From: Roseovarius sp.
GTDB lineage: Bacteria > Pseudomonadota > Alphaproteobacteria > Rhodobacterales > Rhodobacteraceae
NCBI GenBank assembly: GCA_002720475.1
Contig: PBIL01000015.1
Span: 1 to 36,587, forward strand
Direction: 5' to 3'
DNA: 36,587 nt
This document shows positions 23,124 through 29,281 of the stretch, one piece after another (position 1 is the first letter of the stretch; the number at the start of each line of letters is the position of its first letter). Under the pieces are notes generated by a model, which did not search any database, had not been told where the DNA came from, and worked only from the letters and a program-made list of their open reading frames with translations. The position numbers and the translations under genes are program-made.

Positions 23124-23712
23124 GGGAGATACCTCTGGCAATCAGGATGACGGAGCCGGTTTCTGTCTCGCTTTTAGCAACCCGATGGGTGAATTGCCAC
23201 GCCGATTGCGCGGCGGCCAGCTCCTCTCTCCAGCGAATGCCCTTGGGAAAGAGAGCGTGCCCCTCGGGCCGCATATGCCGTTCGGCAAAGCCGAGCAAGG
23301 TGGAAAGATCGGCCAGCGCCCGCGCCGAGACCACATCCGCGGCCAGCGGGGCAAGGGCCTCGATCCGGGACGTGTGAAGCTCCGCCGCGATCCCGGTTTC
23401 GCGTATGACCGTTGCCAGAAAGGCCGATTTCCGCGCATCGGACTCCACGAGGCTGACGCGCGCGGGCGATCCCGTCTCCTGCGCGAGCATGGCGATCACG
23501 AGCCCCGGAAACCCGCCGCCGCTGCCGAGATCGGCCCAATGCCCGACGGGATGCGGCACCAGATCGTGGAGCTGCGCGGAATCCGCGACATGCCGCGTCT
23601 GGAACGCGGCAAGCGAGGCCCGCGAGACCAGGTTGATGCGTGGATTCCATTTCTCAAGGAGCGCGCGATAGATCGAGAGCCGCTCTTCTGTTTCACGTGA
23701 AACAACCCTCAT
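23116..23712 (-). CDS. rsmG: 16S rRNA (guanine-N7) methyltransferase RsmG
   Basis: RsmG (GidB) methylates G527 of 16S rRNA (E. coli numbering). The 198-residue protein has NPRINLVSR near the N-terminus and the SAM-binding [12 protein letters not shown] motif at about 59-70. Its ATG overlaps the mnmG stop (ATGA). Codons 4-8 (VSRET) are written by a perfect parS site, so the N-terminal sequence is shaped by a DNA-binding constraint. Confidence 0.96.
23689..23704. other. parS: parS site 1, ParB centromere inside rsmG
   Basis: TGTTTCACGTGAAACA is a perfect match to the conserved 16-bp palindromic bacterial chromosomal parS sequence. It lies in the 5' coding end of rsmG, about 5 kb from the proposed origin and about 0.6 kb upstream of parA. 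Confidence 0.95.
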
Positions 23713-25580
23713 GCGCGGCGGGCTTCGGCGCGATGCCGCAACCGGACAAGGATGAGCGACAGCGCGGCCGGTGTCATCCCGTCCAGCCGCGCCGCCTGGG
23801 CGAGCGTGCCGGGACGCGCGGCTGTCAGCTTCGACTTGAGCTCGTTCGACAGCCCGTCGATCGGCGCGTAGTCGAAATCGCGCGGGATCACGACCGCCTC
23901 ATCCCGGCGCAGCATTTCCACATCCCGCGCCTGCCGGGCGATGTAATTGGCGTAGGTCGCATCCTTCTTGAGCTGCGTGCGAATCTCTGGCTCGATTTCG
24001 CGGAGCTCTTGCGTGAGACCCACCAGATCCGAAACCTCTAAACCCGGGAAGGCCAGAACCTGCATCCCGTTGCGGCGCGCCCCGTCCTGGTTCACCTCGA
24101 TTCCGGCCATGGCCAGATCCTTCGGGGTATAGCTCTGGTTTTCGAGCAGGGCGCGCCCCGCACACAGGCGCGCCATCTTGTCTTCGAACGCGGTTCGGCG
24201 TTCTTCGGGCACGCAACCAAGCGAGACGCCCAGCGGCGTAAGACGTTGATCGGCATTGTCGGCCCGGAGCGAGAGCCGGAACTCCGCGCGCGAGGTGAAC
24301 ATGCGATAGGGCTCCGAAACCCCCCGGGTTGTCAGATCGTCGATCATCACACCGATATAGCTTTCGGTGCGGCTGAACTGCACGGGGGGTTCCTCCATGG
24401 CGCTCCGGGCCGCGTTGAGACCGGCGACAAGCCCCTGCGCCGCGGCCTCTTCATAGCCCGTCGTCCCGTTGATCTGCCCGGCAAGGAAAAGGCCCGGCAC
24501 GGATCGGACAGAGAGCGTGGCGTCAAGCGCCCGTGGATCGACGTAATCATATTCGATGGCATAACCGGGCTGGAGGATCACCGCCTGCTCGAGACCCGCG
24601 ATGGATCGGACATAGGCCTCCTGCACATCCTGCGGCAAGGACGTCGATATCCCGTTCGGATAGATCACCGAATCGGACAGACTTTCGGGCTCAAGAAAGA
24701 TCTGGTGCGACGTCTTGTCCGCGAAGCGCACGATCTTGTCCTCGATGGAGGGGCAATAGCGCGGCCCGACCCCCTCGATATGACCGCCATACATGGCGGA
24801 CCGTCCGAGGTTCTCCCGAATGATTTCATGGGTTCGTTCATTGGTATGCGTGATCCCGCAGGAAACCTGTCGCGTGAACGGACCGCTCGAGAGGAAGGAG
24901 AACATCACCGGGTCCTCATCCGGCGGCTGCATCTCCAGACCGCCCCAGGCGATGCTGCGCCCGTCGAGGCGGGGCGGCGTGCCGGTCTTGAGCCGCCCGA
25001 GCGGCAGAGCGAAACTGTCGAGCCGCGCGGCAAGGCGCAGGCTCGGGGGATCCCCCATGCGGCCGCCGGGGCGCGACACATCGCCGATATGGATCACCCC
25101 GCGCAGGAATGTTCCGGTCGTGAGAACCACCGCGCGCGCGGAAATATCGGTTCCGTCTGCCAGACGCACACCGCGGACGGCCTCCCCTTTCATGAGGAAA
25201 TCGGCGGCCTCGCCTTCGATGATGTGCAGGCCTTCTGCCTGGCCAAGCACCGCCTGCATCGTCTCACGGTAGATCTTCCGGTCAGCCTGGGCGCGCGGGC
25301 CCTGAACGGCCGGGCCCTTGCGCCGGTTTAGAAGGCGAAACTGGATTCCCGCCCGATCCGCGACCTGTCCCATCACGCCGCCAAGCGCGTCGATCTCGCG
25401 CACGAGATGGCCCTTGCCAAGCCCGCCGATGGCTGGATTGCAGGACATCACGCCGATCCCGTTCTTCGACAAGGTCACGAGCGCGGTCCGCGCCCCCATG
25501 CGCGCCGCGGCATGGGCCGCTTCGGCCCCGGCATGACCCCCGCCGATCACGAGCACGTCGAATTGTTTCACGTGAAACAT
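23709..25580 (-). CDS. mnmG: tRNA uridine-5-carboxymethylaminomethyl(34) synthesis enzyme MnmG
   Basis: MnmG (GidA) acts with MnmE to place the carboxymethylaminomethyl group on wobble U34 of tRNAs. The 623-residue flavoprotein has the FAD-binding [10 protein letters not shown] motif at about 13-22, the conserved [22 protein letters not shown] segment and DGRSI, and a helical C-terminal domain. Its first codons MFHVKQ are encoded by a second perfect parS site. It starts 3 bases after the mnmE stop. Confidence 0.98.
25564..25579. other. parS: parS site 2, ParB centromere at the mnmG start
   Basis: A second perfect TGTTTCACGTGAAACA overlaps the start codon of mnmG, encoding FHVKQ. It is 1875 bases from parS site 1 and about 3 kb from the proposed origin. 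Confidence 0.95.
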
Positions 25581-26889: not shown

Positions 26890-28161
<1,272 letters not shown>

Positions 28162-28681
28162 GGACACCTCGAATGCTGACATGCCGGGGCTGGCGGCAGG
28201 GATGCATGGGGGAATGGCGGCACGCAGGACTGCGCCCGTATCCCTCCTAGGCCGCGTTCATCTGGCCGTCAAGCCAGTGATCGAGGACAGGCGAACACCA
28301 CCCGTCATTCATAATATAAAGACAGATTAAGGTTATTGATGATGCAGAAGGCATTCCCGATCCTGGGGATTACCGGAAAATACTCATGTTCATCCCCATG
28401 TGGGCAAGCCGGTGGTCAAATTCTCCGTGACGTGGAAAAACTCTGAATTCATGGGTATTATATAATGAAATCAATATCTTGAAAATGATGAGATCGGGCA
28501 GTCGTCTTTCCCGGGATGTTGATAACCGCTTATGGACCGGGTTATTCGCGCACGCAATCCATCCTTGTCCCCAAAGGGAAAAACCGGGATTGTGTGGCGA
28601 AGGGTCCGTCCGCACCTGTGCAAATCCGGCAGGCGGTCCCGTGCCGGGGATATCTCGGGCCGTTGTGACAGGGATATCCAC
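28162..28681. other. oriC: Probable chromosome replication origin (oriC)
   Basis: This 520-base gene-free region separates rho (minus) from maf (plus), the position of oriC in Caulobacter-type alphaproteobacterial maps, with parAB and parS nearby. It is far more AT-rich than its surroundings, notably around 28308-28345 and 28430-28490, including the palindrome ATTATATAAT at 28457-28466. DnaA-box-like 9-mers with one mismatch to TTATNCACA or TTWTNCACA occur at 28431-28439 (minus, TTTTCCACG), 28517-28525 (minus, TTATCAACA), 28617-28625 (minus, ATTTGCACA) and 28674-28682 (plus, ATATCCACA). Weaker ones lie at 28542-28550, 28565-28573 and 28593-28601. An IHF consensus lies at 28469-28481. Function is inferred, not shown. 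Confidence 0.75.
28469..28481 (+). promoter_or_regulatory. IHF-binding consensus in the proposed origin
   Basis: AATCAATATCTTG matches the IHF consensus WATCAANNNNTTR at every defined position and sits in the most AT-rich part of the intergenic region, next to DnaA-box-like sites. IHF bends origin DNA in E. coli and Caulobacter. Confidence 0.6.
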
Positions 28682-29281
28682 ATGGTTTTCTCGCTCCTTC
28701 TTGCTTCCGCATCGCCGGTGCGGCGTGCCCTGCTCGAGAATGCCGGCCTCTCGGTCGAGGTCGAACCGGCGCGGATCGACGAGGCGGCCTTGCGTGATTC
28801 TCTCCTGGCCGGAGGGGCGAAACCGCGCGACATTGCCGATGCCCTGGCCGAGATGAAGGCCCTGCGCGTGAGCCGGAAGAAGCCGGACCGGCTTGTGCTG
28901 GGCTGCGATCAGGTTCTTGATCTGGGCGGTGAGATCCTGGCGAAACCCGAAAGCATTGACGAAGCGCGCGCCCAGCTTCTGAGCCTGCGCGGGCGAAGGC
29001 ACGAGCTTTTGTCCGCGGCGGTCCTGTGCGAGGGCAGCGCACCGGTCTGGCGCCATGTCGGCCGGGCGGGGATGACCGTTCGGCCCTTTTCCGAAGCCTG
29101 GCTTGATGGCTACCTGTCGCGCAACTGGCCGGACATTGCCGGATGCGTCGGGGCCTACAAGCTCGAATCCGAAGGCGTACGCTTGTTTTCCCGCGTGGAA
29201 GGCGATTACTTCACGGTGTTGGGCCTGCCCTTGCTCGACCTGCTGGCCTTTCTGACGCTGCGAGGAGATTTGCCGCAATGA
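28682..29281 (+). CDS. maf: Maf-family nucleoside triphosphate pyrophosphatase
   Basis: Maf proteins hydrolyse nucleoside triphosphates, often modified pyrimidines or dTTP/UTP, to monophosphates. The 199-residue protein starts MVFSLLLASASPVRRALL, close to the family hallmark LASxSPxR, and carries the conserved ARIDE and LGCDQVL segments. The ATG at 28682 has AGGGAT about eight bases upstream; the open frame further upstream runs through the proposed origin and is not coding. A DnaA-box-like sequence touches the start codon. The subfamily (YhdE- or YceF-like) is not resolved. Confidence 0.92.
   Translation: MVFSLLLASASPVRRALLENAGLSVEVEPARIDEAALRDSLLAGGAKPRDIADALAEMKALRVSRKKPDRLVLGCDQVLDLGGEILAKPESIDEARAQLLSLRGRRHELLSAAVLCEGSAPVWRHVGRAGMTVRPFSEAWLDGYLSRNWPDIAGCVGAYKLESEGVRLFSRVEGDYFTVLGLPLLDLLAFLTLRGDLPQ

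Follow-up and report, generated by a model that had tools for sequence, protein, structure and literature searches.

The window analyzed here, 36,587 nucleotides in length, is the entire contig C15 (positions 1 to 36587) of a 24-contig, 2.68-Mb Rhodobacteraceae MAG with a completeness of 73.8%. The top-scoring named neighbors of its Rho protein are Rhodobacteraceae, e.g., Roseovarius and Pseudooceanicola. Family matches confirmed the names and directions of ten genes, parB, parA, rsmG, mnmG, mnmE, and rho running leftward and maf, aroE, coaE, and dnaQ running rightward, so that the genes on both sides run away from the gap between rho and maf, as the original prediction from the sequence had it. 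The left flank of this gap is rho (26890 to 28182, minus strand; NCBIfam NF006886 and TIGR00767, above cut-off). The right flank is a maf-like gene (28682 to 29281, plus strand), whose matches to NCBIfam NF002690 and TIGR00172 are both under cut-off. Where they align, it and its positional counterparts in family loci are 51 to 73% identical. The family matches also served to set the maf, aroE, and dnaQ starts by hand. The gap measures 499 bases with the longest rho open reading frame (ORF) and 520 bases (28162 to 28681) with the second rho ATG (28161), which lies near the onset of similarity to most relatives (residues 5 to 8). A search of the window for structured RNAs gave no Rfam match at gathering score and no tRNA or tmRNA.

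Composition and predicted sites of the gap

An unusually long AT-rich gap had been predicted, and this is the only large one in the parB-dnaQ block, the other eight joins being 22 bases or less, with a GC content of 0.54 versus 0.65 for the window. In a nearest-neighbor stability scan, the two least stable 60-base stretches of the window both fell inside it. The least stable (28435 to 28495) contains the predicted AT palindrome, ATTATATAAT, at 28457 to 28466. The second (28304 to 28364) is AT-rich, aligns with a conserved A/G-rich block in relatives, and is the probable unwinding element.

The number of DnaA boxes depends on the consensus used. The predicted minimum of four one-mismatch sites holds with TTWTNCACA, which gives exactly four in the gap (28431, 28517, 28617, and 28674), but not with TTATCCACA, which gives two (28517 to 28525, minus strand, and 28674 to 28682, plus strand) versus 0.10 in gap shuffles (P = 0.008). 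The TTWTNCACA count for the whole window, 16, is not unusual (shuffle mean of 10.66, with 9 of 100 shuffles reaching 16). The weaker boxes that had also been noticed are well represented: with up to two mismatches, TTATCCACA has eight sites in the gap versus 1.47 expected, a number reached in none of 500 gap shuffles, and any 510-base stretch not overlapping the gap has at most three. No exact DnaA box was found in the gap, and the boxes of the window are weak.

Several of these sites align with blocks conserved in relatives. A conserved box identified by alignment and profile at 28363 to 28372 (minus strand) adjoins a conserved track described below and is a weak DnaA box, CTGGGGATTA, where the family consensus is CTGTGGATTA. 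Two weak DnaA-like sites at 28390 to 28407, TCATCCCCA (plus strand) and TTGCCCACA (minus strand), with two mismatches each, align with a conserved TTaTCCaC. The one-mismatch site at 28517 to 28525, TTATCAACA, aligns with a conserved TGtGGATAA. A conserved TCCTTgTCC block (28557 to 28573, plus strand), recovered by profile, box scan, and alignment, includes the weak box TTGTCCCCA (28565 to 28573). The other one-mismatch site, ATATCCACA at 28674 to 28682, extends to the first base of the maf start codon, where relatives have a conserved TTaTCCAC. The predicted integration host factor (IHF) site is also present: the consensus WATCAANNNNTTR has its sole exact match in the window, AATCAATATCTTG, at 28469 to 28481 on the plus strand (shuffle mean of 0.12, with 10 of 100 shuffles having at least one).

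An AT-rich, easily melted stretch, clustered DnaA boxes between genes (here in the window and in 65 relatives), and an IHF site are features by which an alphaproteobacterial oriC is recognized, and all are found here; of the features of the Cori type, the flanking hemE is not, rho bordering the gap. The CtrA consensus TTAA-N7-TTAA was not found in the gap, and 8 of the 65 relatives have one versus 1.4 expected. CtrA sites are not taken as required for an alphaproteobacterial oriC, given that they are relatively scarce in other alphaproteobacteria according to the available part of PMC1914354. The CcrM motif GANTC is absent from the gap (2.58 expected) and less frequent than expected in the relatives' gaps (95 versus 135.3), which gives no sign of Caulobacter-like methylation control.

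Conservation of the gap and its surroundings

A profile was built from the gaps of 65 relatives, with the window excluded. It matches the window at 28305 to 28690 with an E value of 1.5e-22 and 73.4 bits, while the best score among 200 shuffled copies of the gap was 8.8 bits. When 3.24 Mb of fetched loci not used for training was searched, each of the 30 matches (E ≤ 1) fell in a locus or stretch containing rho, among them the gaps of G003 (E value of 2.9e-42) and G045 (3.5e-15), neither of which was used for training. Scores above that of the window, 106 to 248 bits, were obtained for six other loci, of which two had contributed their gap to the training set; G045 (55.5 bits) and L050 (53.4 bits) score lower. 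The 65 gaps represent 64 distinct ones, as L039 and L136 are identical over the 470 bases used; no further pair reaches 90% identity over 400 bases. L008, which has the length and peptide of L035, and L052 were omitted from the profile, and L008, L052, and L047 from an alignment of 45 loci. L050 (1.9-kb gap) and L115, L130, L134, and L137 to L142 (no maf in the stretch) were excluded.

The 65 gaps hold 141 DnaA boxes with up to one mismatch versus 8.8 in shuffles, and 24 exact boxes versus 0.15 expected; the exact IHF consensus is found in 14 of the 65, with 17 sites versus 3.3 expected. In the 45-locus alignment of the final 460 bases before maf, the order is an A/G-rich run, AAAGGATGATGATTTTGTAGG, the DnaA box CTGTGGATTA, TTaTCCaC, an IHF-like block, TGtGGATAA, TcCTTaTCC, and TTaTCCAC at the maf start. 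The boxes recur at set offsets from maf, in a conserved multipart layout with near-constant spacing. On sequence similarity, the rho-maf gap is homologous to a conserved noncoding element at the same place in relatives.

As predicted, hemE is not among the ten named genes around the gap. It was not found in the MAG either, where at this completeness the sequence may be missing. All nine relatives tested have hemE, at most 0.6 kb from rho, on the same strand and the oriC side, in two (G093 and G101) and elsewhere in the other seven. Its absence from this spot is not special to the window's genome, and the comparison drawn with Caulobacter, where hemE lies next to the origin, fits with its position near rho in those two relatives. 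We infer that the arrangement with hemE next to rho is probably the older one and that part of the family has lost hemE from this spot.

In many relatives, another ORF adjoins rho, which we take from its peptide to be HemJ-like. Among 48 loci of our first two sets (rho and maf present, gap below 1.2 kb, window's locus included), 16 gaps are gene free and 32 have this ORF; in a genus set of 20 loci, the numbers are 1 and 19. The HemJ-like protein from L039 has a match in every one of the 51 long gaps but in none of the 17 short gaps, and the gap is conserved with or without hemJ between it and rho. No HemJ-like ORF was found beside rho in the window. Elsewhere in the MAG, L267 (contig C8, 217671 to 218072) has a weak TIGR00701 match of 54 bits, below cut-off.

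Probable replication origin and rival readings

Two exact parS consensus sites were found by motif scan at 23689 to 23704 and 25564 to 25579, 4.5 and 2.6 kb from the gap, in line with the two sites predicted within 5 kb. No further sites were found in the 2.68-Mb MAG with up to two mismatches allowed. They lie 1.9 kb apart, within the 5' ends of rsmG and mnmG. In four relatives scanned (G003, G045, G126, and G122), two parS sites (up to one mismatch) about 1.9 kb apart lie beside rho and are the sole ones in the dense stretches covered.

Cumulative GC skew was determined for the same four relatives, and its minimum is at the gap in two, 25 kb away in one (G122, with 80 kb read), and 94 kb away in one (G126). 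In G003, the minimum is at 3.476 Mb and the gap at 3.4774 to 3.4778 Mb; in G045, the minimum is at 3.220 to 3.221 Mb and the gap at 3.2210 to 3.2215 Mb. Both minima, obtained over dense stretches of about 0.45 Mb, are within about 2 kb of the gap, and both genomes are among five single-contig genomes of the family. The G045 minimum is shallow, 3.208 Mb being almost as low, and coarse sampling of this genome agrees with it, with skew of opposite signs on the two sides of the locus. Coarse sampling alone puts the lowest point of G003 at 3.145 to 3.165 Mb, with a skew of about zero for the first 0.4 Mb past the contig start. The cumulative skew of the window itself is lowest at about 8 to 9 kb, not at 28 kb, with only a local fall and rise at 25 to 31 kb.

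We hold with high confidence that the rho-maf gap is the chromosomal replication origin (oriC), a reading drawn from homology, site enrichment, synteny, parS, and the skew in two of the four relatives. The original prediction of a candidate oriC is thus supported by the conserved element in relatives, the skew minima at the gap in two of them, and the sole parS sites of the MAG nearby. The gap is very probably an alphaproteobacterial oriC of a known kind, at the place expected for the relatives.

The true origin might instead lie near dnaA, tens of kilobases off, with the gap serving as a DnaA-titration or DnaA-regulated site. The skew minimum of G126, at 1.953 Mb, about 3 kb from dnaA, is what this reading would predict, but those of G003 and G045 fall at the gap, and dnaA is 81 and 67 kb away, respectively. 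The distance between dnaA and rho ranges between about 25 kb in G093 and 500 kb in G101, whereas parS stays beside rho in all four genomes scanned, and the multipart layout of the gap with its near-constant spacing also argues against this reading. We regard an origin near dnaA as improbable. The coarse skew of G126 flips sign many times, and a rearrangement is likely there, though not proved. A 200-kb block of mostly negative skew between positive flanks (G126 contig C1, 1.755 to 1.955 Mb) contains the rho-maf gap and looks like an inversion or a displaced minimum.

Divergent genes require promoters, and two promoter-like matches were found at 28100 to 28750 versus 0.4 expected; the gap may be both origin and promoter region. 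A role solely as the divergent rho-maf promoter region is very improbable, since this would leave unexplained the excess of DnaA boxes in relatives and their recurring offsets from maf, as well as the conservation of the gap regardless of hemJ between it and rho. It is harder still to credit a degenerate, retired origin whose boxes decayed in the window's lineage while another site is in use. The lack of an exact DnaA box and the higher profile scores of six other loci would fit such decay, but the gap retains its eight near-boxes and exact IHF site, and the TGGGGAT that replaces TGTGGAT in the box adjoining the track is also present in other relatives. What weighs most here is that G045 scores below the window on the profile and yet has its skew minimum at the gap.

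If the gap is the origin, DnaA would bind the box at 28363 to 28372 and the weaker boxes to its right, and IHF would bend the DNA at 28469 to 28481. From the first box, DnaA would then extend to the left over the trinucleotide track and the AT-rich DNA at 28304 to 28344, which would be opened for the helicase. Replication would proceed both ways, along the direction of transcription of the flanking genes, and ParB at the two nearby parS sites would separate the new origins.

Conserved track and comparison with known origins

Between the AT-rich DNA and the first DnaA box lies a conserved AAGGWTGWTG track, whose version in the window, located by profile alignment, is AAGGTTATTGATGATG (28329 to 28344, plus strand). 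Measured from AAAGG up to the box, the track is 37 or 38 bases long in 56 of 65 loci. Two consecutive WTG units occur in 48 of 65 tracks versus 8.5 expected and RGGWTGWTG in 23 of 65 versus 0.4, expectations that come from a first-order Markov control and flatter the pattern, as the regular expression was chosen after viewing the alignment.

Canonical DnaA-trios, defined as a DnaA box, a spacer of up to 16 bases, and three or more trios, were also searched for. With up to two mismatches allowed, none was found in the window, whether the trios were defined loosely (NAN) or strictly; among the 65 relatives, loose trios occur in 19 versus 25.8 in shuffled controls and strict trios in none versus 1.6. 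Across four geometries tried, strict trios were found in 0 or 1 of the 65 relatives (controls, 0.8 to 1.4). A canonical DnaA-trio system in the gap was rejected on these counts.

Since canonical trios are not above chance, the conserved track may be a deviant unwinding motif. As a tentative proposal, the origins of this family and of some other alphaproteobacteria with hemE still at this spot could be opened via a deviant DnaA-trio track of the form AAGGWTGWTG, which keeps an almost constant distance from a DnaA box. The trio would be a 5'-WTG-3' repeat (3'-GTW-5') with a middle T instead of A, to be used by DnaA. Trios without the middle adenine are suspected among the 15% of genomes in which none were found, according to the part of the basal unwinding system (BUS) paper available (PMC8287927).

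Outside our first 20 named loci, hemE is present in the fetched rho stretch of 43 of 60 loci (L053 to L112). A core profile run against the DNA upstream of hemE in these 43 (slices of 600 bases, one mis-cut at 8.2 kb) gave plus-strand matches in 27; 9 of these score above 10.2 bits, the highest value reached on the opposite strand; reversed sequence reaches 1.0 bits. The WTG pattern with a box occurs in 4 of the 43 versus 0.7 expected. A few loci of other orders have similar cores in the DNA preceding hemE, and a spread beyond the family is weakly supported. Upstream of hemE in a Rhodobiaceae MAG (L063, 2412 to 2828), GGTTGTTGTAGTAGTGG adjoins box-like sites and is by eye nearer to a canonical trio than the family form is.

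The proposed oriC would locate the origin of a chromosome known here in pieces only. It indicates that the Caulobacter-type origin of Rhodobacteraceae stayed next to rho, a spot that hemE, and in some members hemJ, no longer occupies, and the conserved WTG track offers a testable target for DnaA opening of origins in which standard trios were not found.

For comparison, we drew on the available parts of PMC6699656, PMC6315104, PMC1914354, PMC8287927, PMC6209633, PMC6650430, and PMC4285127. In these parts, work on Rhodobacteraceae origins consists of in silico predictions, with no account of the rho-maf gap or the track, either of which may be listed in supplementary tables. Ori-Finder predicted oriCs in 101 of 109 Rhodobacteraceae strains, at sites near parAB (PMC6699656), and for Paracoccus yeei, an AT-rich intergenic oriC with three DnaA boxes was predicted 965 kb from dnaA (PMC6209633). 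These oriCs are from the same family as the window and near parAB, but no other flanking genes or conserved unwinding track are named in the portions available. Marker-frequency sequencing of Hyphomonas neptunium peaks near hemE, from which parAB is about 7 kb distant, and two parS sites are present (PMC6650430); that origin has hemE and was mapped experimentally, whereas the oriC of the window is predicted from sequence and hemE is not there. The origin of Caulobacter crescentus, Cori, lies between hemE and COG1806 (PMC1914354, in the part available). Unlike Cori, the gap is bordered by neither gene and has no TTAA-N7-TTAA CtrA site; like it, the gap lies on the same side of rho by synteny and has DnaA-like boxes, an IHF site, and AT-rich DNA. 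Like the basal unwinding system, as described in the available part of PMC8287927, the gap combines a DnaA box with a spacer and a track of trinucleotides that runs into AT-rich DNA; unlike it, canonical trios were not found in the window and are not above chance in the 65 family loci.
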